The notes under the pieces were generated by a model. The model was not told where the DNA came from. It worked only from the letters and a program-made list of their open reading frames with translations, and searched no databases. Shown here piece after piece: positions 3,533 through 30,748 of a DNA stretch of 32,678 nucleotides. A program made the position numbers and the translations under genes. Source of the stretch: Acidimicrobiales bacterium. Its GTDB lineage: Bacteria > Actinomycetota > Acidimicrobiia > Acidimicrobiales > Acidimicrobilacustridaceae. Every line of letters starts with the position of its first letter. Position 1 is the stretch's first letter. Where the stretch lies: the NCBI GenBank assembly GCA_026419545.1, contig JANZZE010000012.1:1-32678 (forward strand), read 5' to 3'.

Positions 3533-4306
3533 CTACCGAGCCGTCCACCCGCCATCGACGACCAGGGTATGCCCCGTGACGTAACTAGACGCGTCACTGG
3601 CCAGGAACAGCAACGCACCGTCGAGTTCATGCTCGGCTCCCCCTCGACCCATCGGCGCGTTTCGGCGAAGGTAGGCATTCGACGCCTCGTCTTCGAACAT
3701 CGCCGTGGTCATCTCGCTGGGGAACCAGCCCGGGGCGATGGCGTTTACGCGGACGCCTTTGCGCGCCCATTGAACCGCCAGCTCGCGAGTGAGATTGACC
3801 ACTGCCCCCTTGGAGGCCGCATAGCTGGCCTGCTTGATCGGCGCCGAGGCCACCAGGCCGAGGATCGAGGCGATGTTCACAATCGAACCGCGGCCGACCG
3901 CGATCATTTCGCGCCCCACGAGCTGGGTGAGTGCGAACAACGAGTTGAGGTTCACGTCCACCACGTGCTCGAAATGCTCGAGCGGCTCGTCTTCAGCCGG
4001 AATCGGTTCACCAATACCTGCATTGTTCACGAGGATGTCGATCCGACCGTTCACGTCCAGCGCTGCCTGCACGACGGCAGCACGGTCCGGACCCCAAGTG
4101 ACATCACAGACAACCGGCACCGCCCGTTCGAGTTCGGTTGCCAGCTGTTCAAGCAGTTCCTGTCGTCGGGCGGCGAGAACGACGGTGGCGCCAGCCGCGT
4201 CGAGGACCCGGGCGAATCGCGCGCCGAGCCCGCTCGATGCGCCGGTGACGATGGCAACGCGCCCATGAAGCCCAAAGAGCGTGCCGATGTCAATGGTGAC
4301 GGACAT
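3533..4306 (-). CDS. Short-chain dehydrogenase/reductase (SDR), classical type
   Basis: 257 residues, the usual size of classical SDRs. The Rossmann cofactor motif TGASSGLG is at residues 21-28, NNAG at 94-97, a Ser at 147 and the YAASK active site with Tyr162 and Lys166. The C-terminal VDGGW signature is intact. It should be a cytoplasmic NAD(P)-dependent alcohol/ketone oxidoreductase. The residues after the first strand (AARRQE) would fit NADP, but this is weak. The substrate is unknown. It starts 12 nt after the TetR stop and is probably co-transcribed with that regulator, so it may act on the compound the regulator senses or on a product of the divergent LLM/ferritin-like run. Confidence 0.92.
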   Translation of the reverse strand: MSVTIDIGTLFGLHGRVAIVTGASSGLGARFARVLDAAGATVVLAARRQELLEQLATELERAVPVVCDVTWGPDRAAVVQAALDVNGRIDILVNNAGIGEPIPAEDEPLEHFEHVVDVNLNSLFALTQLVGREMIAVGRGSIVNIASILGLVASAPIKQASYAASKGAVVNLTRELAVQWARKGVRVNAIAPGWFPSEMTTAMFEDEASNAYLRRNAPMGRGGAEHELDGALLFLASDASSYVTGHTLVVDGGWTAR

Positions 4307-4318
4307 GAAATCATGAGC

Positions 4319-4993
4319 CTACTCGTGGGCTCGTCCTCGCCCCGCTCGTTCGAGCCGAGACTGCAGCTCCTTTGCCCTCGTTGGAGCCCACGCTGAGAAC
4401 ATGGCCACCAAGCCATCAGTGGCAAAGCTGACGAACTCCTCGTCACGTTGGGGATCCCCCTCGTCGAGCCACACCAGGACTCCATGGATGAGGTAATTGA
4501 CGATCGTCTGCGAGGCCCAACGCTTCATCACCGGGTCAGCGATCGCGTCCGCGATCATGGCATCTGCGATGACTAGGGCCTGCTGGTGCCGCTGGCTTGC
4601 GTACTCAGCAAAGTTGGGCTCCCGGTGGGCATGCACCATCAACAATCGGAAGCTGTCAGGGTCTTCACGGGCAACGGTCAGGATGGAACGGGTTATGAAG
4701 CCGCGTTGGCGTCGCTCAGGTCGCTTTAACAACCCGATAAATTCCTGCTCGAGCCGGTCTGAAACCCGGGTGAGCACCGATCGGTAGAGATCCTCTTTGG
4801 ATTCGAAGTGGCGATAGAGGATCAAACGGGTGACGCCGGCCTCCGCCGCAACGTCTTCCATGGAGGTGGCGGCAAACCCCGCGCGAGCGAAGGCTCTCGC
4901 CGCTGCAGCGAGAATCGATGCCTGCCGTTCCTCTCGACGCAGGAAACGTCTGGGTGCTGCTACGTCATTCATGGTTGGTGCTGATCGAGCCAC
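4319..4993 (-). CDS. TetR/AcrR family transcriptional regulator
   Basis: 224 residues with an N-terminal TetR helix-turn-helix at about residues 22-68 (ILAAAARAFARAGFAATSM, then VTRLILYRHFESKEDLY, the recognition helix region). The C-terminal half is a helical ligand-binding and dimer domain without a recognisable ligand signature. GTG 4993 has an AGGGAG stretch just upstream; ATG 4972 (residue 8) is an alternative start. The gene leads a minus-strand operon (SDR, glycosyltransferase, binding lipoprotein) and diverges from the ferritin-like/LLM operon. A perfect inverted repeat in the gap between them (5098-5119) is the likely operator, so it probably represses both directions and itself until an unknown ligand binds. 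Confidence 0.93.
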   Translation of the reverse strand: MARSAPTMNDVAAPRRFLRREERQASILAAAARAFARAGFAATSMEDVAAEAGVTRLILYRHFESKEDLYRSVLTRVSDRLEQEFIGLLKRPERRQRGFITRSILTVAREDPDSFRLLMVHAHREPNFAEYASQRHQQALVIADAMIADAIADPVMKRWASQTIVNYLIHGVLVWLDEGDPQRDEEFVSFATDGLVAMFSAWAPTRAKELQSRLERAGRGRAHE

Positions 4994-5090: not shown

Positions 5091-5118
5091 TTGCAAGGTG
5101 TATACACTCGAGTATACA
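5091..5118 (+). promoter_or_regulatory. Promoter for the ferritin-like/LLM operon
   Basis: TTGCAA at 5091-5096 (four of six matches to TTGACA), a 16-nt spacer, then TATACA at 5113-5118. The -10 box lies inside the right arm of the palindromic operator, so a bound repressor would block RNA polymerase. On the minus strand the same palindrome supplies TATACT (complement of 5111-5116) as a -10 candidate for the TetR operon. Inferred from sequence only. Confidence 0.5.
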
Positions 5119-5119
5119 C
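5098..5119. promoter_or_regulatory. Palindromic operator, probable TetR site
   Basis: A perfect inverted repeat, GTGTATAC at 5098-5105 and GTATACAC at 5112-5119, around the self-complementary XhoI-like centre within ACTCGA. It lies between the divergent starts of the TetR gene (4993) and the ferritin-like gene (5189). The size, symmetry and AT-rich arms in GC-rich surroundings are as expected for a TetR-family dimer site, and it overlaps -10 boxes in both directions. Confidence 0.7.
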
Positions 5120-5188
5120 TTTGGGTGTCGGGAAGCTCGGCCCGTGCCACCCACGGCGGGTCGACTGTTCGTCTTCAGGGGGGTTCAG

Positions 5189-6316
5189 ATGACCGAACAG
5201 GTCGAGTTCAGTACCGAAGAGCTCTTGATGTCGCACGATTACGCCGAGCCACTCGTCGTCAACGGCGTTCGGTGCCACGGAGGCTTCGACGAGGAAGGCA
5301 ACTACGTCTCGCCCCGTACGCTGTATCGCGCGCCTGCGATCGAGGCCTGGGAAGCCAAACGACGGGCGGATTTCGGCACCGACCCACTTGACGTTCCCAT
5401 AGACGCCTGGCCGGAGAACTTCCCCAACGTCGAGCAGTCCAAGTTCTTGATCCGACAGGGGATCACCGAACCGACGATCGCCGCGCTGACCCGCATCGGA
5501 ACGGTCGAGGGATTTGGGGCGATGATGCGGTACCTGCCGCTACCGGACTTCCGGCAAATTTTTGCCGATGACATCACCGGAACCGCGACCGACCACATCC
5601 GAAAGGGTTTGTTCGAGGCTCATTCTCGGGACGAGGCGGGATGGGAGCAGGAGGCAGGTCACGACAAGATGTGGTTCGCTGCTCGCGACATCGCGTTCGA
5701 GAATCCAGTCACCGAGGACCAGACGGCGCTCATGCTCGAACGGATGGGAATCACCGCGCCAGGCGGCGGCATCCCAGATCTCCAAAAGATCCGGGCGTTC
5801 ATGGAGGCCAATCGAGCATTACCGAAGGACATTCCCCTCGAGTTCGAAGGCATGCTCAGCCGGATGATCGGTCTTCTGTTCATCGAGATCTCAGCGTTTC
5901 ACGCGTTCCGATGGGCGGAAGCGGTGCTCGGCGATCCGGATCTCGTCGCCGGCGACGGCCAAGCCGGCCGGATCGTGTCCTACATCCGTCAGGACGAGAC
6001 CCCACACGTCGGTTATCTCCAAGTCGCGCTCTCCGAGATGCGTGACCGCACGTGGGTCGGTGAAACCGGGACCCGATACAACGGCGAGGAGATGATCCAG
6101 CTGCTATGGGACCGAGCCCTGCAAGAATCCCGCTTCCTTCGACGCGCCGACTTCCTCCGACTGGTGATGCGCGAGGTAGAGCGGGCCATCGGCGATCGGC
6201 CCGACCGCGATGACATCATTGACGAGTTCATCTCGCTCGGTTCCGTGCAGCGCCTCCCCGACGGCACCCTGGTCGAAATCCAGCCCAACGGCGACGAAGT
6301 TCGCGCGGCGGCCTGA
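5189..6316 (+). CDS. Ferritin-like (putative di-iron) protein
   Basis: 375 residues from ATG 5189, which has a GGGGGG stretch about 6 nt upstream; a GTG at 5144 would add 15 residues of poor character. I do not recognise a named family, but the middle and C-terminal helices carry two ExxH motifs (E155-H158 in EAGH, E270-H273 in ETPH) and a buried-looking Glu233 in FIEISAFHAF. These are the ligands expected of a ferritin-like carboxylate-bridged di-iron four-helix bundle. A role as oxygenase, oxidase or N-oxygenase is therefore possible but unproven. There is no signal peptide, so it is cytoplasmic. It is first in a run with two luciferase-like oxidoreductases (16-nt gap to the next) and is controlled from the TetR operator region. 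It may instead be a structural homologue without iron. Confidence 0.7.
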   Translation: MTEQVEFSTEELLMSHDYAEPLVVNGVRCHGGFDEEGNYVSPRTLYRAPAIEAWEAKRRADFGTDPLDVPIDAWPENFPNVEQSKFLIRQGITEPTIAALTRIGTVEGFGAMMRYLPLPDFRQIFADDITGTATDHIRKGLFEAHSRDEAGWEQEAGHDKMWFAARDIAFENPVTEDQTALMLERMGITAPGGGIPDLQKIRAFMEANRALPKDIPLEFEGMLSRMIGLLFIEISAFHAFRWAEAVLGDPDLVAGDGQAGRIVSYIRQDETPHVGYLQVALSEMRDRTWVGETGTRYNGEEMIQLLWDRALQESRFLRRADFLRLVMREVERAIGDRPDRDDIIDEFISLGSVQRLPDGTLVEIQPNGDEVRAAA

Positions 6317-6332
6317 GCTCGAGGGAGCCACC

Positions 6333-7694
6333 ATGCGATTCGGAATCTTCTACGAACACCAACTCCCGCGCCCCTGGGACCAAGACAGCGAACGCCAACT
6401 GATCCAGGACGCCCTCGAACAGATCGAACTCGCCGACAAGCTCGGAATCGACTACGTCTGGGAGGTCGAGCACCATTTCCTCGAGGAGTATTCCCACTCG
6501 AGCGCCCCCGAGGTGTTTCTCGCAGCGGTAAGTCAGCGCACCACCAACATCCGGCTGGGCCACGGCATCATCCAAACCGCGCCGCAGTACAACCACCCGG
6601 TCCGCACCGCAGAACGGGTCGCAATGCTCGATCTGGTCTCCAACGGACGAGTCGAGTTCGGCAGTGGTGAATCCTCCTCGGAAGCAGAACTCGGTGGATT
6701 CGGCATCCCGCCTGCAGTCAAGCGGGAAGCGTGGCTCGAGGGCCTGCAGGTGGCAATCCGCTGCATGACCGAGGAGCCCTTCACGGGTCATAACGGCACG
6801 TTCTGTTCGGTACCGCCACGCAACGTTGTGCCGAAACCAGTCCAGAAACCGCATCCGCCGGTCTGGGTCGCGTGCAGTCGCCGCGACACGATCCTGCTTG
6901 CTGCGGAGAAGGGGATCGGGGCGCTCACCTTCGCATTCATCGACCCCGAGGAAGCCCGGCAGTGGGTCAGCGACTACGAAGCGACCATGGCCGCAAAATG
7001 CGTGCCAGTCGGCAAGGCCGTCAACACCGACATCGCGTGCGTCACACCAATGATGTGCCACCGTAACGAAGACGAAGCCATCGCCCGCGGATTAGAAGGT
7101 GGCAACTTCTTCGGCTATTCGCTCGCTCACTATTACGTCTTCGGTGAGCACGTCCCGGGCGTCACCAATGTGTGGGAGGAGTTCCAACAGCGGCGCGACA
7201 AGCTCGGCTACTCACCAGAAGCCGCGATCGCAGCCCGTCAAGAGATCCTGGGCGCGAAGGCGGCGGCAGGTGACGTGACTGGACTGCGCGGAGCAGTCGG
7301 CACGCCCGAGCAGATCCGCGAGTTCCTGCGCCGCTACGAGGAATCGGGTGTCGACCAGGTGATCTTTGTGATGCAGGCCGGTCGGAACCGCCACGAGCAC
7401 ATCATGGAGTCGCTCGAGCTGTTCGCAGCCGAGGTGCTGCCCGAGTTCAAAGAACGCGATGAGAAACTCCGAACGGCGAAGGCTGAACGGTTTGCACCAA
7501 TCATCGAGGCGGCGTTGGCTCGGCGGTCCGACGATGCTCCTCCGATGCCCGAGGGTTACACGATGAAGGCCATCCCGAAAGCAATGGTCGATGCGGCTGG
7601 CAACGAGGAGATCAAGAACTGGATGGACAAGCTCGCCGATCGGCAAGCCACCGGTGAGCGCGACGAAGCGTTCGAACGAGCCGTTTTCGGTTAA
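6333..7694 (+). CDS. LLM class flavin-dependent monooxygenase (luciferase-like)
   Basis: 453 residues from ATG 6333, with GAGGGAG 5-6 nt upstream. The N-terminus (MRFGIFYEHQLPRPW) and the EVEHHFLEEYSHSSAPEVFL block, EHHF at residues 46-49, are hallmarks of the bacterial luciferase-like TIM-barrel family. GHGIIQTAPQYNHPVRTAERVAML and RVEFGSGESSSEAELGGF follow, the flavin phosphate-binding region. Such enzymes use FMNH2 (or F420H2) with O2 to oxygenate organic substrates. At 453 residues it is longer than the usual 330-400, with a helical C-terminal extension. It probably needs a flavin reductase encoded elsewhere. It lies 16 nt after the ferritin-like gene and is almost certainly co-transcribed with it. 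The substrate is unknown. Confidence 0.9.
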   Translation: MRFGIFYEHQLPRPWDQDSERQLIQDALEQIELADKLGIDYVWEVEHHFLEEYSHSSAPEVFLAAVSQRTTNIRLGHGIIQTAPQYNHPVRTAERVAMLDLVSNGRVEFGSGESSSEAELGGFGIPPAVKREAWLEGLQVAIRCMTEEPFTGHNGTFCSVPPRNVVPKPVQKPHPPVWVACSRRDTILLAAEKGIGALTFAFIDPEEARQWVSDYEATMAAKCVPVGKAVNTDIACVTPMMCHRNEDEAIARGLEGGNFFGYSLAHYYVFGEHVPGVTNVWEEFQQRRDKLGYSPEAAIAARQEILGAKAAAGDVTGLRGAVGTPEQIREFLRRYEESGVDQVIFVMQAGRNRHEHIMESLELFAAEVLPEFKERDEKLRTAKAERFAPIIEAALARRSDDAPPMPEGYTMKAIPKAMVDAAGNEEIKNWMDKLADRQATGERDEAFERAVFG

Positions 7695-7749
7695 CGCACC
7701 AGCTCGGGTACGTTCGCCGGCATCTGACACCACACACGAGGGGGACAGC

Positions 7750-8625
7750 ATGGACTTCGGGGTCGTCTTCGCCAACGTCGGGATGTTCGCGTCACCCGAC
7801 GGGGCTGCCGCGATCGGCAAAGCTGCCGAAGATGCTGGGTTCGATTCCGTTTGGACCGTCGAGCACGTGGTCGTCCCTGACGGCTACCAGTCTCGCTACC
7901 CCTATGACGAGAGCGGCCGGATGCCCGGCGACGGCATGATCGACATGCCCGACCCGCTGATCTGGTTGACTTGGGTTGCTGCCCACACCTCCACACTGAA
8001 CCTCGGCACCGGGATACTCATCGCGACACAGCGGAACCCGTTGGTTTTGGCAAAGGAGGTCGCATCGCTCGACCGCCTCTCGGGTGGCCGCGTGCGTCTC
8101 GGAGTTGGGGTCGGCTGGCTTGCCGAGGAGTTCGATGCGATCGGTGTGCCATTCGAACGACGGGGCGATCGGCTCGATGAGTACATCGCCGTTATGAGGA
8201 CCTTGTGGAGCGAGCACAAGGCAACCTTTCACGGAGAGTTCTGTGCTTTCGACAACGCGGTGATGTTGCCCAAACCAGCCAACGGTACGGTGCCCATCAT
8301 CATCGGGGGGCACACGAAGGCCGCGGCCCGACGAGCCGGTCGGCTCGGTGATGGCTTCTTTCCCGGCCGGACCGGCACAGAAGAACTCGGCCAACTCTTG
8401 GCGATCATGCGCAAAGCTGCAGAGGATGCCGGCCGGAACCCGGACAGCATCGAGATCACCTGCGGTTCGCAAGGGGTTTTCGGCGACGACCCGATCGGAG
8501 CGGTGCACAAACTTGAGGATCTCGGCGTGTCCCGTATCGTGATACCGCCGTTGTCGTTCTCCCCCACCGATATCGCGGAAGCACTGGGGCGCTTCGGCGA
8601 AAACGTCATCGCAAAAGTCAATTGA
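7750..8625 (+). CDS. LLM class F420-dependent oxidoreductase
   Basis: 291 residues from ATG 7750, with GAGGGGG ending 5 nt upstream. The sequence follows the short F420-dependent LLM pattern: AAEDAGFDSVWTVEHVVVP near the N-terminus, LNLGTGILIATQRNPLVLAKEVASLDRLSGGRVRLGVGVGW with the non-prolyl cis-peptide/cofactor region, and IIIGGHTKAAARRAGRLGDGFFP near the C-terminus. Family members reduce or oxidise substrates with coenzyme F420, which fits an actinobacterium. It is 55 nt after the longer LLM gene and convergent with the metallopeptidase genes. Together with the ferritin-like and first LLM genes it suggests a small oxidative catabolic module under the TetR regulator; the pathway is not identifiable from sequence. 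Confidence 0.9.
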   Translation: MDFGVVFANVGMFASPDGAAAIGKAAEDAGFDSVWTVEHVVVPDGYQSRYPYDESGRMPGDGMIDMPDPLIWLTWVAAHTSTLNLGTGILIATQRNPLVLAKEVASLDRLSGGRVRLGVGVGWLAEEFDAIGVPFERRGDRLDEYIAVMRTLWSEHKATFHGEFCAFDNAVMLPKPANGTVPIIIGGHTKAAARRAGRLGDGFFPGRTGTEELGQLLAIMRKAAEDAGRNPDSIEITCGSQGVFGDDPIGAVHKLEDLGVSRIVIPPLSFSPTDIAEALGRFGENVIAKVN

Positions 8626-8680: not shown

Positions 8681-10168
8681 TCAGAGCGGCGAGGTTCCCC
8701 CACCAGATGGGGGTGGGGGGAGGCAGTTGGTCAGCCGTAGGGTCTCACCATCGGGCCGCTCGATATCACCCACACCGCCAGCCTGTTTCCAGGCGTCGAG
8801 CGCTGCGGCAAGTTCGTCCAGATCATTTTGTGAATCCATCCGCCAGTCGATCCGAAAACAGCTCTGCCCATCGTCATCGGAGTACTCGACAAACCAATCG
8901 CCGCCCCAACCGGCAGCTGCGACCAACGCGCGTTCGCGACCGATACGTGACTCCAACAGCTGACGGGTCAGGAGCTCGCCCAACACACCGTCCCGGATCT
9001 TGCTTCCTTGATACGGCGGTGGCTCGACCTCGATGCGCGGCTCGCGTGCGGCGAACTTCTCGGGGTGGATGACCTGCTCGCTCGTCGTTGGCGGAGTGAC
9101 GAACGCGGAATCAAGCCCGCTCGGGCCGGAGCGCTCGAGGATGTCATTGACAAGCGCCTCACCGAGAACGTACGTCTCGATCGTCTGACTGACGACGATT
9201 GCGGGATCCCCGTTCGGATCGGTCTGCTGGTCGAGCGATGGAGGTGTCAGGTCGAACGGTGCGCCCGGGTTGAACTGGTCGTGCCACCTGCGCTCGATGC
9301 GGCGAGCATCACCTTCCGCCAGAGCACGCAACCCAAACGCGACCTCGTCCTTGCGGCTCGCGTACTCAGGACGAGAGAGCGTGAAGTGCTGATCGTCGAG
9401 GGCGTGCGTGAGTTCGTGTACCAACGCTTGCCGCAAGTCGTTCGTCAGTGGTCGGCGCTTGACGATCACGGCATTGGCGTCGGCAGAGTAGAACGCTGGC
9501 ACCGAGGACACGAGCAACGCGCGCAAGCGCCGGGCAAAGTCTTCACCTGGTGGCAACAAACCCAAGGCTCCGAGTAGTCGGCCCTGCGCCTCCAGGTCCT
9601 CGGGGCTGAACTGTTCCATCAGCCGATCCCCGAACTCCTCCTCGTCGAGAAGCAATGAGTAGACGGGTTGCACGAACCGGAGCCCTCGCTCGTTTACCAC
9701 GAAGGCAGCAAGACTTCTCAACTCGAGTTCGAGCTGACGCTCGTCGATCGTCGGCACGTTCGGCGGCGCCGAGGTCGTAGAACTCGGGACAGTCGTCGGC
9801 GCCGGCGCCGAAGTTGATCGCGGCGCCTCAGTCGCGCTGACGGTGCTCGAGGTGACCGCTGAGCTCGGGACCGACGAACCGGACCCGGCTGCCACCTCTG
9901 GGGTGGTCCTGCGACCGAGGAGGAACGATGCAGCTACGAGCACCAGCACGACCAGCCCAGCTACTAGGGCTAGCCATCGACGATCTGGCGGTGTTGTCGG
10001 GGTCGGGGACTCGGGCGGCGTTGGCCGCGGAAGTCGGCCTGGCTCAGGTGGTGAAGACGGCAAGGGCGGAGCGCCCGGAGCTGGCGACTCCGGGGCCAGC
10101 GGCGGCGAAGGCGGAAGCTCCGAAGCACCGGGCCAACGCGGCGCACGGCCGGAAACGCCGACGGTCAT
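8681..10168 (-). CDS. Membrane-anchored HExxH metallopeptidase-like protein (paralogue 1)
   Basis: 495 residues from ATG 10168. A Pro/Ser-rich cytoplasmic tail (1-62) leads to one membrane segment (about 65-85) and a Ser/Thr/Pro-rich linker, then an extracellular domain. HELTH at 251-255 within VHELTHALDDQHF gives the zinc-binding HExxH; Glu285 in ALAEGDARRIE is the likely third ligand, as in gluzincins. Later blocks (GGDWFVEYSDDDGQSCFRIDWRM and a terminal Cys) repeat in the neighbour at 10221-11792, a clear paralogue. Such proteins resemble putative metallopeptidase families of unknown function; the substrate is unknown. A longer reading from 10459 overlaps the upstream gene and was rejected, because TAACGT lies 7 nt before ATG 10168, a leaderless pattern. 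Confidence 0.85.
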   Translation of the reverse strand: MTVGVSGRAPRWPGASELPPSPPLAPESPAPGAPPLPSSPPEPGRLPRPTPPESPTPTTPPDRRWLALVAGLVVLVLVAASFLLGRRTTPEVAAGSGSSVPSSAVTSSTVSATEAPRSTSAPAPTTVPSSTTSAPPNVPTIDERQLELELRSLAAFVVNERGLRFVQPVYSLLLDEEEFGDRLMEQFSPEDLEAQGRLLGALGLLPPGEDFARRLRALLVSSVPAFYSADANAVIVKRRPLTNDLRQALVHELTHALDDQHFTLSRPEYASRKDEVAFGLRALAEGDARRIERRWHDQFNPGAPFDLTPPSLDQQTDPNGDPAIVVSQTIETYVLGEALVNDILERSGPSGLDSAFVTPPTTSEQVIHPEKFAAREPRIEVEPPPYQGSKIRDGVLGELLTRQLLESRIGRERALVAAAGWGGDWFVEYSDDDGQSCFRIDWRMDSQNDLDELAAALDAWKQAGGVGDIERPDGETLRLTNCLPPPPSGGGTSPL

Positions 10169-10175
10169 GGCTTGC

Positions 10176-10181
10176 ACGTTA
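10176..10181 (-). promoter_or_regulatory. -10 box, leaderless start of paralogue 1
   Basis: TAACGT on the minus strand, ending 7 nt before ATG 10168. The TAnnnT hexamer at this distance, with no ribosome binding site, fits a leaderless transcript starting at or next to the start codon. It lies in the 52-nt gap after the upstream paralogue. Confidence 0.45.
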
Positions 10182-10220
10182 GCGGTGGCACGCTGATCTG
10201 CGACCGCGGCACCGGCACAG

Positions 10221-11792
10221 TCATCGGCTGCAGGAGGTGAGTCGCACTGAACGCTGATCGAGTTCCTCAACCGAGGCGCGGACCTGGCTGAAAACCCACC
10301 GGCGCAACATGGTCCCGAGCTCGTCAGCATCCGTGGGTGTCTCCATTCGCCAATCGATGCGCGCACACGCCCTTCTGTCAGTACCGCGCCAGACGACGTA
10401 GGCGTCACCACCCCAGCCGCGGGCAGCTCGATCAACTTCCGTACTCGTCCCCACATCATCGAGCAACAGGCGTGTCATCAGTTCGCCGAACATTCCTGAA
10501 TCGACGATCTCGCCTTCTGCTGGCGGTGTCGCAACCGGTTCAGCGGGTTCGCGTGCGAGGTACTTGTCGACATCAAGCGCTTGTTCAGTCGTGCTCGGTG
10601 GATCGCTGAGGGCTTCGTCGACAGCGTCCTGTCCGCCGATCGCCTTGAGTTGCTCAACAAGTGACTCTCCGATGTCGTACGGCGCGCTGATCTGCTGGAT
10701 GAGAATTGCCGGAATGGAAGCAAGCTCCCTCAGATCTGGGATGAACTCGGCTTCTTCCCGATCACGCGCCGCCTTCTCCTCCGGCGTCATTTGTGCCTCA
10801 TAGGCCTGCTCGATCCGGCGGGCGTTGCCCTCGGCCACCGCACTCAGCCCGAACCCCACCTCGTCATGCCGCTCGTCGTATTCAGGGCGGTCGAGATCGA
10901 ACCATTGGTCATCGAGCGCGTGGGTCAACTCGTGCACGATCGTCTGGCGGACGTACGGCGACAGGTGATCACCCCGGACGACGAGCTCGTCTTTCTCCGG
11001 GTCGTAGAAACCAAGGACCCCGACTTCGAGGAGCTTCCGTAACGCGCCCGCCACGTCGGTGCCGGGTTCGACCATTCCAAGAGCTTCGAAGGCAGCCGCT
11101 GCCTTCTCGAGATCTTCGCGTTCTTCGTCGAAGTCCTCGAGGAGCAGGCGGTTGAACTCTTCGTCGCCAGCCACGTGGACCTGCACCTTCTGCTTGAACG
11201 TGAGCCCTCGTTTCTGCTCGACGAAACGGCTGAGCGTTTCCACCTCACGTTCGATGGTGGCCGGATCGGCTGGAGGGAAGGTGGTGGTCGAACGCGGTGC
11301 GCTTGTCGCGGGAGCGCGGCGAGTCGACGGCGGCTGTGTGGTGCTCGTGGGCAACTCGTCAACGGCGACGTCCACTCGACGGGTTCGGCCAAGCAAGAAG
11401 GCACCGCTGATGAGACCGACCACGACGAGAATGCCGACCAAGGCGAGTACGAGTCTCGACGAGTTCGGGCGCCTCGGTGGTACTGGAGACGGGGGGAGGC
11501 CGGGCTGGACGGAGCCGGGCCAACCAGGCGACACCGGTATGTGGCTTGAAGACCAGCCAGAACGACCAGGGTCGGCAGCATCACCAGGGTAGGGCCAGTA
11601 GGGCGGAGGCGGCGGCCAGGCCCCCGGCGGACCAGACCCCGGCGGCGCAGGCGGCGGAGCCTGAGGCCAATCCCCGGGCGGCTCCCAACCCTGAGACTTC
11701 CCAGGCGTCGCTGACGGTGGCGGCGGCAGCCGGTTCTTGTCCCCGGTTGAGGGCCGATCGGTTGGCGGTCGAGGCGGTTCATGTGATGGCAA
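10221..11792 (-). CDS. Membrane-anchored HExxH metallopeptidase-like protein (paralogue 2)
   Basis: 523 residues if begun at TTG 11792; an in-frame TGA two codons upstream rules out a longer protein. A very Pro/Gly/Trp-rich cytoplasmic region (1-112) precedes one membrane segment (about 114-136) and a Thr/Pro/Arg linker, then the external domain. HELTH at 287-291 and Glu321 in AVAEGNARRIE give a gluzincin-like zinc site. The same block order as paralogue 1 follows: SVLGFYD-type strand, HELTHALDDQ, GESLVEQL, TTEQAL, GGDAYVVW, ARIDWRME and a C-terminal Cys. TACCGT lies 7 nt before the TTG. The tandem pair and the small membrane protein at 11827-12243 form one minus-strand unit. Protease activity is inferred from the motif only. 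Confidence 0.85.
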   Translation of the reverse strand: MPSHEPPRPPTDRPSTGDKNRLPPPPSATPGKSQGWEPPGDWPQAPPPAPPGSGPPGAWPPPPPYWPYPGDAADPGRSGWSSSHIPVSPGWPGSVQPGLPPSPVPPRRPNSSRLVLALVGILVVVGLISGAFLLGRTRRVDVAVDELPTSTTQPPSTRRAPATSAPRSTTTFPPADPATIEREVETLSRFVEQKRGLTFKQKVQVHVAGDEEFNRLLLEDFDEEREDLEKAAAAFEALGMVEPGTDVAGALRKLLEVGVLGFYDPEKDELVVRGDHLSPYVRQTIVHELTHALDDQWFDLDRPEYDERHDEVGFGLSAVAEGNARRIEQAYEAQMTPEEKAARDREEAEFIPDLRELASIPAILIQQISAPYDIGESLVEQLKAIGGQDAVDEALSDPPSTTEQALDVDKYLAREPAEPVATPPAEGEIVDSGMFGELMTRLLLDDVGTSTEVDRAARGWGGDAYVVWRGTDRRACARIDWRMETPTDADELGTMLRRWVFSQVRASVEELDQRSVRLTSCSR

Positions 11793-24957: not shown

Positions 24958-25938
24958 TCAACCCCGACGACGGCGGCGCACAAGCCGCATGAGGACCGCA
25001 ACTGCAGCAGCGAGACCGAGCAACGGTAGGGCGCGCTTCAACACCGGCGAGCCTGCGGTTTCGAGCAAGTCGACCGGTTCCGGTTCCGGGCTCTCGACGC
25101 GATGCGCCGGCCTGGGTCCCGACGCCTCCGCAGCCTCGATCGTCGCGTCTGCACCGGCCGGAGCCGAAGAAGCGTGATCCACTGCTTGCTCGCCGGATAC
25201 AGCTCGCCGCTCGCCGTCGGCGGGAGGCGACGCCGCTGCCGCGTCGCCGTCCTCGGTCGGCCCATCGCCGGCCGAGGAAGACTGATTCGCTTCTTCGCTG
25301 TCAGCCCCAGCCGCCGTTTGCTTGGTGGCGATTTTCGCGGTCTTCTTGGTCGCCTTCTTCGCTCCGGACGCGGCTTGGGCCACTTTCACCTTGGCCACGA
25401 GTTCTGCTTCATCGGCGGGCGCGGACGCCGAGCCGTTGCCTGCGTTCGGTTCGTTCTCAGCCATTTCGACCTCCTCCGATCGTGCGCGTTCGCCAGCGAG
25501 TACCCGTTGCTCGAGGTTCTCGACGAACTGCGCCAACAGCTTCGCGCTGACGTCAGCGATGACGCCCCGACCGAACTGCGCGACCTTGCCGGTGACGTTC
25601 AAGTCGGTGAGCACGTCGACCTGGGTCGTCGAGTGATCTTTGGGAACGAGCTGCGCCGAGATCGTCGCTGACGCGTTGCCCTGGCCGCGCGTGTCCCGCC
25701 CAGAGGCCTGCACCACGGCTCGATAGTTGCGATCATCTCGCTCGACGAATCGAGCAGTGCCTTTGTACTGCGCAGTGATCGGACCCACCTTCACCTTGAC
25801 GATCCCGCGGTACTCGTCACCGTCGATTCCTTGGAGTTGGGCACCGGGTAGACACGGCGCGATGCGCTCGATGTCGGTCAGCACCGCCCAGGCTTCGTCG
25901 ATCGGTACCGGCACCTCGAACTCGTTCGTCAGCTCCAC
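24958..25938 (-). CDS. coxG: CoxG-like SRPBCC protein with C-terminal membrane anchor
   Basis: 326 residues from GTG 25938. Residues 1-150 are the CoxG/SRPBCC domain (LTNEFEVPVPIDEAWAVLTDIERIAPCLPGA, then VGPITAQYKGTARF and FGRGVIADVSAKLLAQFVENLE). A long disordered Ala/Lys/Glu-rich linker follows, with a KKATKKTAKIATK basic patch, and then a membrane helix near 298-318 with a terminal RRRRRG. In CO dehydrogenase clusters CoxG recruits the enzyme to the membrane and helps pass electrons to the quinone pool; the anchor here fits that role. Its gene overlaps the mocA stop by 10 nt, so the two are co-translated. No CoxL or CoxS is in the window. Confidence 0.88.
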   Translation of the reverse strand: MELTNEFEVPVPIDEAWAVLTDIERIAPCLPGAQLQGIDGDEYRGIVKVKVGPITAQYKGTARFVERDDRNYRAVVQASGRDTRGQGNASATISAQLVPKDHSTTQVDVLTDLNVTGKVAQFGRGVIADVSAKLLAQFVENLEQRVLAGERARSEEVEMAENEPNAGNGSASAPADEAELVAKVKVAQAASGAKKATKKTAKIATKQTAAGADSEEANQSSSAGDGPTEDGDAAAASPPADGERRAVSGEQAVDHASSAPAGADATIEAAEASGPRPAHRVESPEPEPVDLLETAGSPVLKRALPLLGLAAAVAVLMRLVRRRRRG

Positions 25939-26489
25939 TGGCCAAGGTCCTCCATGCGGTCGATGTCGCCGGGTTCGCCGTCGAACGGTATCTCGCGGAC
26001 GAGATCCGGTCTCAATCGCATCAGTTCACGAGCGCCCGAATCACCAGAGCTGGGCAAGAGACCGAACACCGCGGACGCGAGCCGCACAGGATGGCCACGC
26101 CGGCCCCCATAGCAGGCCACGGCGATGGGCGCATCGACCGCAGCGGCAACCGTGCGCCACGCGTCCACGGTAACCCCGGGTTGATCACCGAGCCCGACCA
26201 CGATCGCCTCATGAGCGCGCGCAACCGCATGGTCGACAGCGACCCGCAGCGACGTCGCCAGACCGCCAGCCCAGTCCGGGTTGTCCAGGACGGTGACGGT
26301 TGGCGGGAGCTCTGCGGCAAGCGATACGGCCCCTTGCACCACGATCGTCTCGTCCAACCCAGCAGCCAGCGCCGAGCCAACCGACCAGGCAACAACCGGC
26401 TGACCCCCGAGAACCGTCAACAGTTTGTGCCTCGGGCCACTGAAACGGCTGCCTGCACCCGCCGCCAGCACCACTGCCGCCGTCGTCAT
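25929..26489 (-). CDS. mocA: MocA-like molybdenum cofactor cytidylyltransferase
   Basis: 186 residues from ATG 26489. The nucleotidyltransferase loop is LAAGAGSRFSGPRHKLL (residues 8-24), GLGDQPGV near 99-106 supplies the metal-binding Asp, and NPDWAGGLATSLR is the family block. MocA-type enzymes attach CMP to molybdopterin to make the dinucleotide cofactor (MCD) used by CO and xanthine dehydrogenase-type enzymes. TACCGT lies 7 nt before the ATG, a leaderless pattern, and the longer reading to 26813 has no support. Its stop lies inside coxG. With coxG, xdhC and coxM nearby it clearly belongs to a molybdenum hydroxylase system. Confidence 0.88.
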   Translation of the reverse strand: MTTAAVVLAAGAGSRFSGPRHKLLTVLGGQPVVAWSVGSALAAGLDETIVVQGAVSLAAELPPTVTVLDNPDWAGGLATSLRVAVDHAVARAHEAIVVGLGDQPGVTVDAWRTVAAAVDAPIAVACYGGRRGHPVRLASAVFGLLPSSGDSGARELMRLRPDLVREIPFDGEPGDIDRMEDLGQWS

Positions 26490-26496
26490 GACCGTC

Positions 26497-26512
26497 ACGG
26501 TACGCATAAGGT
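26497..26512. promoter_or_regulatory. Back-to-back -10 boxes of two divergent leaderless genes
   Basis: On the minus strand TACCGT (complement of 26497-26502) lies 7 nt before the mocA ATG. On the plus strand TAAGGT (26507-26512) lies 7 nt before GTG 26520. Only 30 nt separate the two start codons, so each promoter's upstream region overlaps the coding start of the other gene and the two must compete or be co-regulated. Confidence 0.5.
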
Positions 26513-26519
26513 GCAAGCC

Positions 26520-26972
26520 GTGAGCAATCTCGACGAGTTCAAGTCCCCGCTTGCCAAGGTCACCATGCTCCTGGCCGATGCTGCCCAGGTTGCAGACGGC
26601 AAACTCTTCATCCTGGGCGGTGGGCTCGCCCACATCGGACCACAGCCTCAGCCGGTCGCGTTGGCCCTGTTGATCGAAGTGCCCTGGGACCGAGCGAACA
26701 TCCCCCACGACTGGAAGCTCGAATTGTTGGACGAGGACGGCATGCCGGTGATGGCTAATGAGATGCCTGTGATGGTCGCTGGCCAGTTCGAGGCCGGTCG
26801 GCCCGCGGGACACACCCCGGGTTCACCGCTGGCCGTGCCGCTCGCCATCAACTTCAGTCCCCTCCCCGTCGAACCCGGGCGCACCTATATGTGGCGATTC
26901 GCGATCAATGAGACGAGCGAATCCGATTGGAGCATCCGGTTCGCGGTCCGCCCCACCCAGCCCGGACTCTGA
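26520..26972 (+). CDS. DUF6941-like protein
   Basis: 150 residues from GTG 26520. SPLAKVTMLLADAAQVADGKLFILGGGLAHIGP is the characteristic opening of this family of unknown function, in which ADAAQV...GKLFILGGG recurs. The rest is beta-rich (ALALLIEVPWDRANIPHDWKLELLDEDG, then EPGRTYMWRFAINETSESDWSIRF). It is small and soluble with no catalytic motif. The start has no ribosome binding site but a TAAGGT box 7 nt upstream. It diverges from mocA. No role in the molybdenum system is shown. Confidence 0.8.
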   Translation: MSNLDEFKSPLAKVTMLLADAAQVADGKLFILGGGLAHIGPQPQPVALALLIEVPWDRANIPHDWKLELLDEDGMPVMANEMPVMVAGQFEAGRPAGHTPGSPLAVPLAINFSPLPVEPGRTYMWRFAINETSESDWSIRFAVRPTQPGL

Positions 26973-27049
26973 TTCGAAGACTTGGTACGGGCGTCTCACA
27001 ACCCGAGCCAGGCGCTGATCAACCGCTGCCCCCAAGCGTTGCCCGCCCG

Positions 27050-27196
27050 GAGATCAATCTCTTGATCCGCCGCGGCATGCGCCAGAGTCAGGACAAGATC
27101 CGATTCACGCCACGCGTTCGGCCACTTGGGATCAAGATCGACGTCTCGAACGTCGCCGAAGCTCTCGAGGTCCTCGAAGGTCCGACTGCCCGCTGA
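27050..27196 (+). pseudogene. vapB: VapB-like antitoxin, C-terminal part only
   Basis: The frame before VapC reads EINLLIRRGM, then a basic stretch and LGIKIDVSNVAEALEVLEG before a TGA that overlaps the VapC ATG (TGATG). LLIRRG is typical of the end of the DNA-binding domain and the tail of the toxin-neutralising part of a VapB. In frame upstream there is no ATG or GTG before the DUF6941 gene; only TTG 27062 and ATG 27077 exist, which would give about 40 residues without the DNA-binding domain. The N-terminal half appears lost. It may still make a short toxin-binding peptide. Confidence 0.55.
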
Positions 27197-27627
27197 TGCT
27201 GGTCGACGCAAACATCCTCCTCTACGCCGTCGACACCGAGAGCAGGTTCCACTCAGCGGCTTCGGCTTGGCTCACCGACGCGCTCAACGGTCCGCGCCGG
27301 ATTGGACTCCCGTGGCAATCAACCACAGCGTTCCTCCGGATAGCGACGAACCCACGTGCAGCGCGGAATCCGTTGTCACCTCGCGAGGCCTGGGAGATCG
27401 TCGACGCATGGCTCACCGCGCCTGCAGCCTGGATCCCGATGCCAGGGCCCGGCTACGTAACAATCTTTAGCGACTTGATCGTCCGATACGACCCTCATGC
27501 CGGGCTCATCAGCGACGCGGCCATTGCCGCCCTCGCAATCGAACACGGAGTTGAAGTGGTTAGCGCTGACAGCGATTTCGCCCGCTTCAGCGAGATCCGG
27601 TGGGTGAACCCATTGGCCTGCACCTGA
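27196..27627 (+). CDS. vapC: VapC-like PIN-domain toxin
   Basis: 143 residues, the normal size. The PIN acidic residues are Asp4 (LVDANILLYA), Asp107 (SDAAIAALAIEHG) and Asp125/Asp127 (VSADSDFARF). WQSTTAFLRIATNP is the usual second block, with Gln41 where some PIN proteins have an acidic residue. VapC toxins are Mg-dependent endoribonucleases that cut tRNA or rRNA and are held by VapB. The start codon is set by the TGATG overlap with the antitoxin frame. The toxin looks intact beside an N-terminally truncated antitoxin, so it is either silenced, neutralised by the short peptide, or inactive. Confidence 0.9.
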   Translation: MLVDANILLYAVDTESRFHSAASAWLTDALNGPRRIGLPWQSTTAFLRIATNPRAARNPLSPREAWEIVDAWLTAPAAWIPMPGPGYVTIFSDLIVRYDPHAGLISDAAIAALAIEHGVEVVSADSDFARFSEIRWVNPLACT

Positions 27628-27640
27628 CCCACAGGTGCAG
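27618..27640 (+). terminator. Hairpin overlapping the vapC stop
   Basis: CTGCACCTG (27618-27626) pairs perfectly with CAGGTGCAG (27632-27640) around a 5-nt loop, and covers the vapC stop codon. No T-run follows, so it may be an imperfect terminator or an mRNA 3'-end stabiliser. Confidence 0.4.
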
Positions 27641-27786
27641 TCGGCGCCCCGATGTCCCAATTGCTACGTCAGGCTCACATTCGTCAACAACGCCGCTCAT
27701 CGGTTCATTGACGGCTCCGTAGATCGCACGGCCAGTATCCCCGAGAGACCCGCCTATGCGAGCGAGTTGGTTGCGCTGGTTGCGGC

Positions 27787-28869
27787 TCAGTGAATCGCAC
27801 CGTCTGTATCCCTGAGGGAACACCCGGAACGGCCCGAGCGCAACCGGATGATCTCGGCGCAAATCGAGATGGCAGTCTCCTCAGGCGTTCGGGCCCCGAT
27901 ATCGAGACCGATCGGTGCCATCACCCGCTCGAGCGCGACCTCGTCAACACCCACCTCCCGTAGTCGGGCGAGCCGCTCGGCGTGGGTCCGCCGGCTCCCC
28001 ATCGCGCCGATGTACCCCACGTCAGTGGCGAGCGCTGCGCGGATGGCTGGCACGTCGAACTTGTGATCATGGGTCAAGACGCACACTGCGTCACGGGGTC
28101 CGAGCGCAGCGCCGATTCGTTCAAGAAACCGCTGTGGCCAGTCGACGACGACCTCATCAGCCATCGGGAACCGTTGTCGCGTGGCGAACGTCTCACGAGC
28201 GTCACACACGGTCACCCGGTATCCGAGCAACTTGGCTGCACGGGCAAGGGCAGCAGTGAAATCAACTGCGCCGAAGATCACCATGCGCGGCGGGGCGGCA
28301 AACGACTCGATGAACACCGTCACGGCGTCTTCGCGAGCCTCGCCGTGCGGCCCGTAGTGGCGGATTGCGCTCGTGGCCGCAGCCAACTCAGCAGCTGCAT
28401 CGCGACCAACCACCCGATCCAGATCTGGATCGCCCAGCGTCCCGTGCCGCGCGGCTCCCGACCTGACGATCATCTTGGCGCCAATGCCTGGACCGTCAAC
28501 GATCGTCGCCAACGCCACCGGCTCTTCTCGACGCAGTGCGTCCACCAATGGCTCGAACCCGGTGAACGGTTCGATGAACAGCTGGATGGTCCCGCCGCAG
28601 GTTAATCCCACCGCGAAGGCCTCATCGTCGCTGTGACCGAACGACACCAAGCGCCGACTGCCCGTCGGGAGTAGACGCAGCGCCTCGGTCACGACAGCAC
28701 CTTCGATGCACCCGCCGCTGACCGACCCGGACACCTCGCCGGTCTCGTTGACCGCCATGGCCGCTCCAGCCAACCGCGGGCCTGAACCCTCGACGTTGAC
28801 GACTCGCGCCACCATCACGTTCCGGCCAGCGGCGTTCCATCGCTCGATGTCATCGAGGAGGTCTCTCAC
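27787..28869 (-). CDS. xdhC: XdhC/CoxF family molybdenum hydroxylase maturation protein
   Basis: 360 residues from GTG 28869, whose GTGA overlaps the end of the coxE remnant. The N-terminal XdhC/CoxI domain has VNVEGSGPRLAGAAMAV, SGSVSGGCIEGAVV and GLTCGGTIQLF, with its two conserved Cys. The C-terminal Rossmann domain has MVIFGAVDFTAALARAAKLLGYRVTVCD and VLTHDHKFD, then YIGAMGSRRTHAERL and GLDIGARTPEETAISICAEII. XdhC-type proteins bind the molybdenum cofactor and help sulfurate and insert it into xanthine/CO dehydrogenase-type enzymes. It looks fully intact, unlike its two upstream partners. Cytoplasmic. Confidence 0.93.
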   Translation of the reverse strand: MRDLLDDIERWNAAGRNVMVARVVNVEGSGPRLAGAAMAVNETGEVSGSVSGGCIEGAVVTEALRLLPTGSRRLVSFGHSDDEAFAVGLTCGGTIQLFIEPFTGFEPLVDALRREEPVALATIVDGPGIGAKMIVRSGAARHGTLGDPDLDRVVGRDAAAELAAATSAIRHYGPHGEAREDAVTVFIESFAAPPRMVIFGAVDFTAALARAAKLLGYRVTVCDARETFATRQRFPMADEVVVDWPQRFLERIGAALGPRDAVCVLTHDHKFDVPAIRAALATDVGYIGAMGSRRTHAERLARLREVGVDEVALERVMAPIGLDIGARTPEETAISICAEIIRLRSGRSGCSLRDTDGAIH

Positions 28870-29323
28870 CGACGTATCACCTCAGCTAGCTCTTCGAACG
28901 CGGCAAGGCTGCGCCCGTCGACGAACTGGTCGACATGAGGCACCGCTGCCGCCGTTCCTCGGGCGCTCGGTTCGTAACCCTCTGATGCCTTGAGCGGGGT
29001 TCACCCACATGGTGGTCAGTGTCGTGCTCTCCTGCGTGCACAACTTCCGGATCGGTCGGCGGGCCGAGTGGATCTCCCAGCGGGAGCGCCAATCCCCCTC
29101 TCCACCACCAGTCGAAGGCTGCCTCCAGCGCTTCGCGGTGCTCGGGAGAACTGGTGAGGGTTGCACACGCTTCCCACCACAACGACACTCGATCGGGGTG
29201 CGGCAACGCCGCAATGGCCCTCCCGAACGCGACCGATGCCTCGAGTGGAACGTCGACTCCGAGAGCCCGCAGGTGAGTGACCAACGTGAGCCGGTCACAC
29301 GGAACTGCCACCGCTTCGGCCAT
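28866..29323 (-). pseudogene. coxE: coxE remnant: VWA-domain protein without its VWA domain
   Basis: The N-terminus is sound: ATG 29323 with GGAGGAAAG upstream, and about 75 residues (VTHLRALGVDVPLEASVAF, then LWWEACATLTSSPEHREALEAAFDWWWRGG) that match the start of CoxE-type VWA proteins. The C-terminus is also clear in another frame: GYEPSARGTAAAVPHVDQF, then DGRSLAAFEELAEVIRR to TGA 28866-28868, preceded by WVNP. Between them roughly 230 residues holding the MIDAS metal site are missing, and one extra base in GGGG 28996-28999 breaks the WVNP-LKASEG join. The whole span is about 150 codons where about 380-400 are normal. It overlaps xdhC (GTGA) and coxD (TGATG), so it once was a coupled operon gene. 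An assembly gap is the alternative. Confidence 0.8.
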
Positions 29324-29475
29324 CAGCTTTCCTCCACGCGCCGGCCGGTGCTGAACAGCGGTCGGCCGAGGCGGGCGGCGAGGAACACGGCCGTCGCCAA
29401 CCCGTCGTCGGCGAGATAATCGCTCTGGTCGAGGAGCCGTTCGACCGCGTCAGGGGACTCGAAAGGCCACGTCAC
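29323..29475 (-). pseudogene. coxD: coxD remnant: MoxR-type AAA+ protein cut before the P-loop
   Basis: GTG 29475 to TGA 29323-29325, 50 codons, reading VTWPFESPDAVERLLDQ then YLADDGLATAVFLAARLGRPLF. This is the opening of CoxD/MoxR ATPases up to the residues just before the Walker A loop (normally LGRPLFLEGE-GVGKT). It then jumps to STGRRVEES and a TGA that overlaps the coxE ATG. About 240 residues with all ATPase motifs are missing, while start and stop context is kept. CoxD is the AAA+ chaperone that works with CoxE to mature the active site of CO dehydrogenase. It is 9 nt after the Dabb gene stop. Confidence 0.75.
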
Positions 29476-29484
29476 CCCAATAGC

Positions 29485-29784
29485 CTACGGGCCTGCGTCA
29501 AACTGCACCGCAGCCCGGGCAGCAAGTATCGGTTGGATCCGGTCGGCGAGCAGTGCCCGATGCGCAGGGTGGTCCCGATAGGCCCGGTAGCCATCCGGGT
29601 CGTCGAAGTCCGCCACAACAGCAAAGTCATAGTTGCCGTCGTTGATGCCAGCGTCGCGGCCGAACCGGTAGCCCCGAAGCGACTGGATACGAGACGGCAA
29701 TTCGGCGAGTGCCGCTTCGACCGCGGCAATCTGCTCATCGGTGACTCCGTCGTTCCAGCGGAACAGTGCGACGTGGCAGAACAT
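29485..29784 (-). CDS. Dabb-domain protein (stress-responsive A/B barrel)
   Basis: 99 residues from ATG 29784, which has GGAG 6 nt upstream; ATG 29790 is an alternative adding two residues. The sequence MFCHVALFRWNDGVTDEQI, then YRFGRDAGINDGNYDFAVVADFDD and YRAYRDHPAHRALL, is a classic dimeric alpha/beta-barrel Dabb protein with the conserved HxxLF/W and H-P-x-H motifs. Functions vary (small-molecule cyclases, stress proteins, unknown). It precedes the coxD remnant by 9 nt and is the first gene of that minus-strand run. A direct role in the molybdenum enzyme system is not known. Confidence 0.92.
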   Translation of the reverse strand: MFCHVALFRWNDGVTDEQIAAVEAALAELPSRIQSLRGYRFGRDAGINDGNYDFAVVADFDDPDGYRAYRDHPAHRALLADRIQPILAARAAVQFDAGP

Positions 29785-29911
29785 CGGCATCTCCGTTCGG
29801 TTGGCCTCGGACCCTCAGTCGGGTGATCCCGCACGAGAGCGTGACTGGGTGATCGCGATGAACGCCACCCGTGACGCGTTGACGCAACCAATCGGGTGGC
29901 TCCGCACGATA

Positions 29912-29917
29912 TATGGT
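29912..29917 (+). promoter_or_regulatory. -10 box, leaderless start of coxM
   Basis: TATGGT ends 6 nt before GTG 29924, inside an AT-rich patch (GATATATGG) that stands out in this GC-rich DNA. No ribosome binding site is present. Confidence 0.5.
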
Positions 29918-29923
29918 GACTGA

Positions 29924-30748
29924 GTGATCCCTGCCCCGTTCGAGTACTTGCGCGCCGGGTCGGCTGAGGAAGCAATCTCGCTGCTCGCTGAGCACGGTGA
30001 CGACGCCAAGGTGCTGGCGGGCGGGCATTCGCTGCTCCCGCTCATGAAGCTGCGGCTGGCGACACCCGGTGTGCTCATCGACATCGGCGAGCTGAGAGAA
30101 CTGTCATACATCCGAGACGGTGGTGACCACGTCGCAATCGGCGCCTTGACCTGTCATCGGGACCTCGAACGCAGCGAGCTGCTCCAGCACGAGGTGCCGT
30201 TGCTTTCGTTTACCGCGCATCTCGTCGGCGATCCCCAGGTGCGGAACCGTGGAACGATCGGCGGCTCACTCGCGCATGCGGATCCAGCCTCAGACCTCCC
30301 CGCGGCGGTGCTCGGGCTCGGGGGCACACTGGTTGTCACCGGTCGGGAAGGCTCCAGGCACCTCGCGGCCGATAAGTTCTTCACCGGTTTTCTCGAATCC
30401 GCCTTGGCTCCCGACGAACTGCTGACCGAGATCAGGGTCCCAAAGACCGGCGACGCTGGCTGGTCCTACCAGAAGTTCAACCGGCGAGCACAGGATTGGG
30501 CGATCGTGGCCGTAGCAGCGGTAACCGGGCCGCAACCGCGAGTTGCTCTCGTCAACATGGGTCCCACACCCATGCGGGCTGCTGCCACCGAGGCAGCCTT
30601 GGTCAGCGGCGCAAGCGCAGCCGAAGCTGCCGAGCTCGCGGCTGACGGAACCGAACCACCCACCGACATCAACGCCACCCCGGACTACCGCGAGCATCTC
30701 GCCCGGGTGCTCACCCGGCGAGCGCTTGCCGAAGCCGGCGTCGCCTGA
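29924..30748 (+). CDS. coxM: FAD-binding subunit of a molybdenum hydroxylase (CoxM type)
   Basis: 274 residues from GTG 29924, normal for CoxM. It has both FAD-binding signatures: AGGHS at residues 32-36 (LAGGHSLLPLMKLR) and RNRGTIGGSLAHADPASDLPA at 107-127. VGDPQVRN before it and the GWSYQKFNRRAQDWAIV block later are also typical. In CO dehydrogenase-type enzymes this subunit passes electrons from the 2Fe-2S small subunit to the quinone pool. The expected partners CoxS and CoxL do not follow: the next 260 nt hold no clear gene and then YceI is on the other strand. It is divergent from the Dabb-coxD'-coxE'-xdhC run. Confidence 0.93.
   Translation: MIPAPFEYLRAGSAEEAISLLAEHGDDAKVLAGGHSLLPLMKLRLATPGVLIDIGELRELSYIRDGGDHVAIGALTCHRDLERSELLQHEVPLLSFTAHLVGDPQVRNRGTIGGSLAHADPASDLPAAVLGLGGTLVVTGREGSRHLAADKFFTGFLESALAPDELLTEIRVPKTGDAGWSYQKFNRRAQDWAIVAVAAVTGPQPRVALVNMGPTPMRAAATEAALVSGASAAEAAELAADGTEPPTDINATPDYREHLARVLTRRALAEAGVA

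Follow-up and report, generated by a model that had tools for sequence, protein, structure and literature searches.

The window analysed here is the whole of a 32,678-nucleotide stretch of an Acidimicrobiales genome (contig JANZZE010000012.1 of GenBank assembly GCA_026419545.1, forward strand). In it, a gene for a ferritin-like protein (FLP) that belongs to no named family precedes the genes for two luciferase-like monooxygenases (LLM), a long, presumably flavin-dependent enzyme (LLM1) and an F420-type oxidoreductase (LLM2), and is divergent from a gene for a TetR-family regulator. The explanation that best fits the comparative evidence, with a probability of about 0.6, is a small regulon under a TetR repressor, the core of which consists of FLP, likely a di-iron protein, and the flavin monooxygenase LLM1, both acting on one hydrophobic compound. 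The enzyme classes are known ones in what would be a new two-enzyme regulon, and the trio put forward in an earlier note on this stretch shrinks to a pair plus its regulator; within that pair, the link between FLP and LLM1 is stronger than a first reading of the stretch could know.

A shared operator points to co-regulation of the two genes. Side-by-side comparison of upstream regions yields a palindrome with the consensus TGTATACnnnnGAGTWTACA, which is matched in the window at 5099-5118. A motif was trained on 32 FLP upstream regions alone, with the LLM1 promoters held out as the test and a score above 20 bits taken as a strong site. Such sites occur in 20 of the 32 FLP upstream regions, including all 19 with an adjacent TetR gene but only one of the 13 without, and it is only by this correlation that the regulator is tied to the operator. 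Among the held-out promoters, four of the 20 that belong to LLM1 genes unlinked to FLP score 27.9–34.9 bits (genomes G007, G013, G014 and G068); several unlinked LLM1 matches of lower identity were not included in the set of 20. Because G014 and G068 are of one genus, these cases represent three independent lineages at most. When 5145 chunks of 160 bp were scored, 22 exceeded 20 bits, namely 18 FLP and 4 LLM1 promoters, and the next best chunk reached 13.0 bits. As the FLP-trained motif finds the same site at unlinked LLM1 promoters in four genomes, FLP and LLM1 appear to form one regulon. Upstream of the LLM1 genes linked to FLP, the site is found in 0 of 11 cases.

The same specificity is seen on the scale of whole genomes, in a search with the 20-base pattern that was written after inspection of both the FLP and the LLM1 promoters (the held-out evidence being the FLP-trained motif). 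In 148 genomes of the same order, the pattern with at most one mismatch occurs in 19 places, 13 at FLP, four at unlinked LLM1 and two elsewhere (G006 and G129), and all 11 perfect matches lie at FLP (8) or LLM1 (3). Even with two mismatches allowed, the pattern occurs only once in the genome from which the window comes (3.07 Mb in 344 contigs, with a single copy of FLP), at 5099-5118. G013 lacks a match to FLP, and there it is LLM1 from which the TetR homologue diverges; the arrangement in G108 is similar, and its site is weak (11.1 bits). Judging from these sequence patterns, TetR is the probable binder of the palindrome at 5099-5120 and the probable repressor of FLP and LLM1. Two FLP promoters that have no adjacent TetR homologue (L050:4800-4960 and L059:9231-9252) carry a variant palindrome, around TGTAGAC...CTACA, perhaps a case of shifted operator specificity.

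What the regulator senses can be approached through the few sites that lie elsewhere, although the hints at the ligand are thin. A tentative proposal, which narrows the regulon explanation down and is compatible with it, is that TetR responds to a lipid- or terpenoid-like acid, that the regulon serves a peripheral step in a catabolism like that of fatty acids, and that other oxygenases (P450) take the place of FLP and LLM1 in relatives. In G006, which has no match to FLP and none to LLM1 at E <= 1e-100, a TetR homologue is divergent from a pair of genes for a short-chain dehydrogenase/reductase (SDR) and a cytochrome P450, with an operator-type site between them (L125:4407-7070), and another such site is close to a gene whose translation suggests a class III CoA-transferase. 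In G141, a genome with FLP, an operator-like site of 23.7 bits, which could be due to chance, precedes by about 110 bp a gene whose translation suggests etfB (L128:3196-3217). Furthermore, the nearest NCBIfam regulator model for the TetR protein is that of the fatty-acid regulator FasR, at 60 bits, far under the cut-off of 330. Against this proposal, these are single genomes, the G006 and G141 loci were picked for their match to the pattern itself, and the CoA-transferase and etfB identities come from translation rather than from a family search.

The narrow distribution of the operator also bears on another, rather improbable alternative, namely that FLP does bind two metals yet does not oxygenate the substrate of LLM1. 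It might instead be, for instance, an oxidase of the R2lox or rubrerythrin kind or a scavenger of peroxide or O2, within a general stress or xenobiotic regulon. The presence of R2, R2lox and NrdF among the nearest folds is in line with such a role, as is the absence of LLM1 from 13 of the 31 genomes with FLP. However, in the 60 loci selected independently of the pattern, the operator is found at no third class of genes, the single site in the window genome is unlike a broad stress regulon, and LLM1 belongs to a class of substrate-oxidising enzymes.

Gene neighbourhoods were compared across 33 close FLP loci, one of them that of the window, and seven distant loci that encode paralogues at 33–35% identity and are excluded from the 33-locus counts; one locus of the 33 (L004), which ends inside FLP, was not scored for the operator. 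A divergent TetR homologue is present at 19 of the 33 loci, and LLM1 is adjacent at 11, directly downstream at ten of these and directly upstream at one (L045). The SDR gene on the TetR-side strand is a frequent but not a constant companion (12 of 33 loci, 58–74% identity). At the seven distant loci, there is no TetR, LLM1 or LLM2 nearby, with one far SDR match. On the maximum-likelihood tree of FLP, the linkage to LLM1 changes by eight gains or losses, at least seven of which are forced by supported branches, and 91 of 500 shuffles give a value as low as the observed one, that is, the linkage is hardly clustered but scattered over the tree, so the pair seems to have been assembled, or retained, repeatedly. 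The two genes also co-occur: with LLM1 counted above ~64% identity, 18 genomes have both, 13 only FLP, 8 only LLM1 and 109 neither (Fisher p 2.3e-9, uncorrected for kinship). Thus, the common operator, the recurrent linkage and the co-occurrence bear out the claim of the earlier note that FLP and LLM1 belong together.

The same counts do not support the trio as a unit. LLM2 lies within ~6.1 kb downstream at 5 of the 33 loci, against 11 for LLM1 and 19 for the divergent TetR, and has no operator evidence. An obligatory three-gene pathway of the kind first proposed, in which one substrate undergoes di-iron, flavin and F420 chemistry, is therefore unlikely: although LLM2 follows LLM1 in the same orientation with a gap of 55 bp, belongs to an F420-type family in a genome that encodes an F420 ligase (PF01996, 198 bits) and has homologues downstream of FLP at four other loci (L040, L041, L043 and L044), the identity there is 52–67%, and homologues of LLM2 are widespread in the order whether or not FLP is present (60 of 148 genomes at E <= 1e-70). 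LLM2 was accordingly rejected as a core gene; in this lineage, both it and F420 are accessory. Going by the 55-bp gap, LLM2 would still be on the same transcript as FLP and LLM1; a crude terminator scan gave hits no more numerous than in shuffled sequences.

The structure prediction called for in the earlier note yields a confident helical bundle that resembles di-metal oxygenases. The AlphaFold2 model of FLP, based on an alignment of 30 relatives, has a mean pLDDT (per-residue confidence) of 91.6 and a pTM (global confidence) of 0.88, and consists of an N-terminal beta hairpin followed by long helices at residues 94-115, 133-150, 217-247, 258-286 and 299-334. The top ten PDB rows of the Foldseek search include PolF, stearoyl-ACP desaturase, AetD, AurF, a CADD-like protein and MiaE. 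The best 50 rows of the VIA comparison comprise R2/NrdF, R2lox, HrmI, ADO, MiaE, CADD, UndA and PqqC with Z scores of 10.7–11.9, led by HrmI (Z 11.9, 3.4 A, 205 residues aligned, 9% identity); nearly all of these are di-metal enzymes.

Conservation was assessed in 30 close relatives and in a wider set of 18 sequences that includes the paralogues at 33–35% identity. The residues invariant in both sets (30/30 and 18/18) include H30, E107, H136, H145, D148, E149, H158, E233, D269, E270, H273 and E283. The earlier note had pointed to two ExxH motifs and to E233. Both motifs are present in the window protein (E155-AG-H158 and E270-TP-H273), and E233 and E270/H273 are indeed invariant, but the first is not conserved as a motif. 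E155 is retained in 24 of the 30 close relatives and 9 of the 18 wider sequences, with Q or A in the other six and I, Q or A in the other nine, respectively; E155/H158 was thus discarded as the first metal motif, and E149 is the better candidate. E143 is also an unlikely ligand, being V, L or D in 6 of the 18 wider sequences. Together with the invariant residues, the profile comparisons point to a predicted site composed of E107, D148-E149 and, after a loop of varying length, H158, then E233 and E270xxH273, which would be the classic di-iron arrangement except that a loop divides the first ExxH. The wider profile matches two PDB entries, neither significantly, a bacterioferritin and a designed di-iron protein (E 0.19 and 0.27), both on the E270xxH273 helix; in a profile alignment to six AurF-family regions, E233 and D269-E270xxH273 fall on their Glu and DExxH (P 0.0009, probability 23%). 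A metal-free bundle, PqqC-like or a scaffold, in which the invariant acids and histidines bind the substrate, would agree with the interrupted first ExxH, the lack of significance in the Foldseek and PDB profile searches and the presence of PqqC, a cofactor-free enzyme, among the VIA rows (Z 11.0), but is improbable given that E107, E149, H158, E233, E270 and H273 are invariant even in the paralogues and that the two weak PDB profile matches are to a bacterioferritin and a designed di-iron protein at the E270xxH273 helix.

Several observations weigh against a regulon of a di-iron oxygenase and LLM1. LLM1 is not next door at 22 of the 33 FLP loci, and 13 of 31 FLP genomes lack an LLM1 above ~64% identity, which implies that FLP can function without LLM1. 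A strong operator site is missing from 16 of the 20 unlinked LLM1 loci, and G001 and G038 have the site at FLP but not at their unlinked LLM1 homologues. Neither a flavin reductase nor a ferredoxin reductase was recognised among the linked genes, in which no search was aimed at these enzymes. With regard to FLP itself, the Foldseek search gives no PDB match at E <= 0.001 (best E 0.15), and the VIA Z scores stay under 13, values that helical bundles can reach through a common arrangement without kinship. The first ExxH is not contiguous, with E149 and H158 nine residues apart and the length of the loop between them variable. Finally, the proposed ligands are no more invariant than H136, H145 and D148, and hence the candidate ligand set is a choice.

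If the regulon explanation is correct, TetR would bind the palindrome in the TetR–FLP intergenic region, and also the one at the LLM1 promoter where LLM1 lies elsewhere, and would repress both genes; a small hydrophobic substrate or intermediate would release it and so induce them. FLP would then activate O2 at a di-iron site (E107; E149...H158; E233; E270xxH273) and hydroxylate or otherwise oxidise the compound, and LLM1, with reduced flavin, would add further oxygen in a Baeyer-Villiger or aldehyde-type oxidation. The SDR dehydrogenase that is often encoded nearby may act between the FLP and LLM1 steps by interconverting alcohol and ketone. A bolder version, in which FLP founds a new class of di-iron oxygenases with a loop-interrupted first ExxH and works in relay with LLM1 on one compound under a private operator, is possible but doubtful. 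For an uncharacterised family, these results provide a role that can be tested (di-iron oxygenase), a specific partner (LLM1) and a specific switch (the operator with TetR). The operator offers a direct handle on the inducer, and hence on the substrate, in organisms that have metagenome bins as their close named relatives here.

FLP has a narrow phyletic distribution. Matches are found in 36 of the 148 genomes of the order, about 30 of which (the window's own apart) are at 48–67% identity and the remainder weaker or partial, and, in a sample of the phylum, in 5 of 396 genomes, all five within the same order. A collection of genome contigs contributes three further loci, all in metagenome-derived bins, labelled Actinomycetes, Frankiaceae and Myxococcota; the latter two bins may be misbinned. 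No relatives were detected in the viral contigs and plasmids searched. The distant paralogues (L067-L073), in which E143 is missing in six of the seven, form another branch of this unnamed family. Judged from listings and the beginnings of abstracts, no description of the FLP–LLM1 pair was recognised in the literature searched, and PMC9430723, probed for passages on operator motifs, contained none of the terms looked for.

The locus spans 3.5 to 8.6 kb of the window, with the SDR and TetR genes on the minus strand and FLP, LLM1 and LLM2 divergent on the plus strand (Table 1). The three-gene layout of the earlier note is confirmed, with gaps of 16 bp (FLP–LLM1) and 55 bp (LLM1–LLM2), as are the assignment of both LLM enzymes and the F420 type of LLM2. 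The mechanical open reading frame of FLP begins earlier, at 5144. As the note had also stated, FLP has no named family: nothing worth the name is found in Pfam or NCBIfam, a PDB sequence search is likewise without a match, and a Pfam scan of each of the 30 members of the alignment (FLP and 29 relatives) puts none over a cut-off.

Table 1. Features of the FLP–LLM1 locus in the window.
Feature	Position	Strand	Details
SDR-family dehydrogenase gene	3533..4306	-	PF13561, 204 bits; downstream of TetR, same strand
TetR-family regulator gene	4319..4993	-	PF00440 DNA-binding domain, 61.9 bits (cut-off 24); divergent from FLP
Palindromic operator TGTATACACTCGAGTATACACT	5099..5120	+	TetR–FLP intergenic region, 90 bp upstream of FLP start; motif score 37.1 bits
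FLP gene, 375 aa, ferritin-like helical-bundle protein, candidate di-iron oxygenase	5189..6316	+	
LLM1 gene, 453 aa, long luciferase-like flavin monooxygenase	6333..7694	+	PF00296, 169.5 bits (cut-off 27.9)
LLM2 gene, 291 aa, F420-type LLM oxidoreductase	7750..8625	+	PF00296, 202 bits (cut-off 27.9); TIGR03619, 275.1 bits (cut-off 166.9)

Elsewhere in the window, a tandem of two related long proteins is encoded on the minus strand at 8681-11792, the second being 40% identical to the first in part, with only a sub-threshold match to a putative metallopeptidase family. At 24958-30748, genes for XdhC/CoxI-type and molybdopterin dehydrogenase FAD-subunit proteins, with CoxG and MobA-like genes nearby, make up a CO-dehydrogenase-like cluster.

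Among the known systems, the AurF-type di-iron N-oxygenases (PF11583; HrmI, AurF) share with FLP the best VIA match, the Foldseek rows for AurF and PolF, and the alignment of E233 and DE270xxH273 with the E and DExxH of the family. FLP differs from them in that neither it nor its 29 relatives match PF11583 (gathering score 29.6) and its first ExxH is split. Where AurF has an additional histidine, H223, four positions ahead of the Glu in the final motif, FLP carries I or V, and FLP also has an N-terminal beta-hairpin region with the invariant H30-G31-G32. The window genome encodes three AurF-family (PF11583) matches besides FLP, two of them over the cut-off (G000:C333:8548-9354, C338:9951-10481 and C111:27159-27689).

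The ferritin-like enzymes aldehyde deformylating oxygenase (ADO), MiaE, R2 and R2lox are four-helix-bundle VIA matches of FLP (Z 10.7–11.8). Their ligand logic is E / ExxH / E / ExxH; FLP has no sequence match to them and its first motif is interrupted. The haem-oxygenase-like di-iron oxidases (PF14518; CADD, UndA) are also among the VIA rows, at Z ~11, and are characterised by the motif HxxxD/ExxH. This motif is absent from FLP, in which residue 266 is I or V in 30/30 relatives; there is no Pfam match (score 28.9 required), and the profile alignment is empty, which says little because a control alignment between two known families, AurF and haem-oxygenase-like, is empty as well. LLM1, in turn, matches the bacterial luciferase-like monooxygenases (PF00296; 7bip, LuxA) over its full length, with 7bip as the best PDB match (E 1.7e-27), and is set apart from them by scores far under the cut-offs of the NCBIfam LLM models listed and by a C-terminal extension that brings it to 453 aa.

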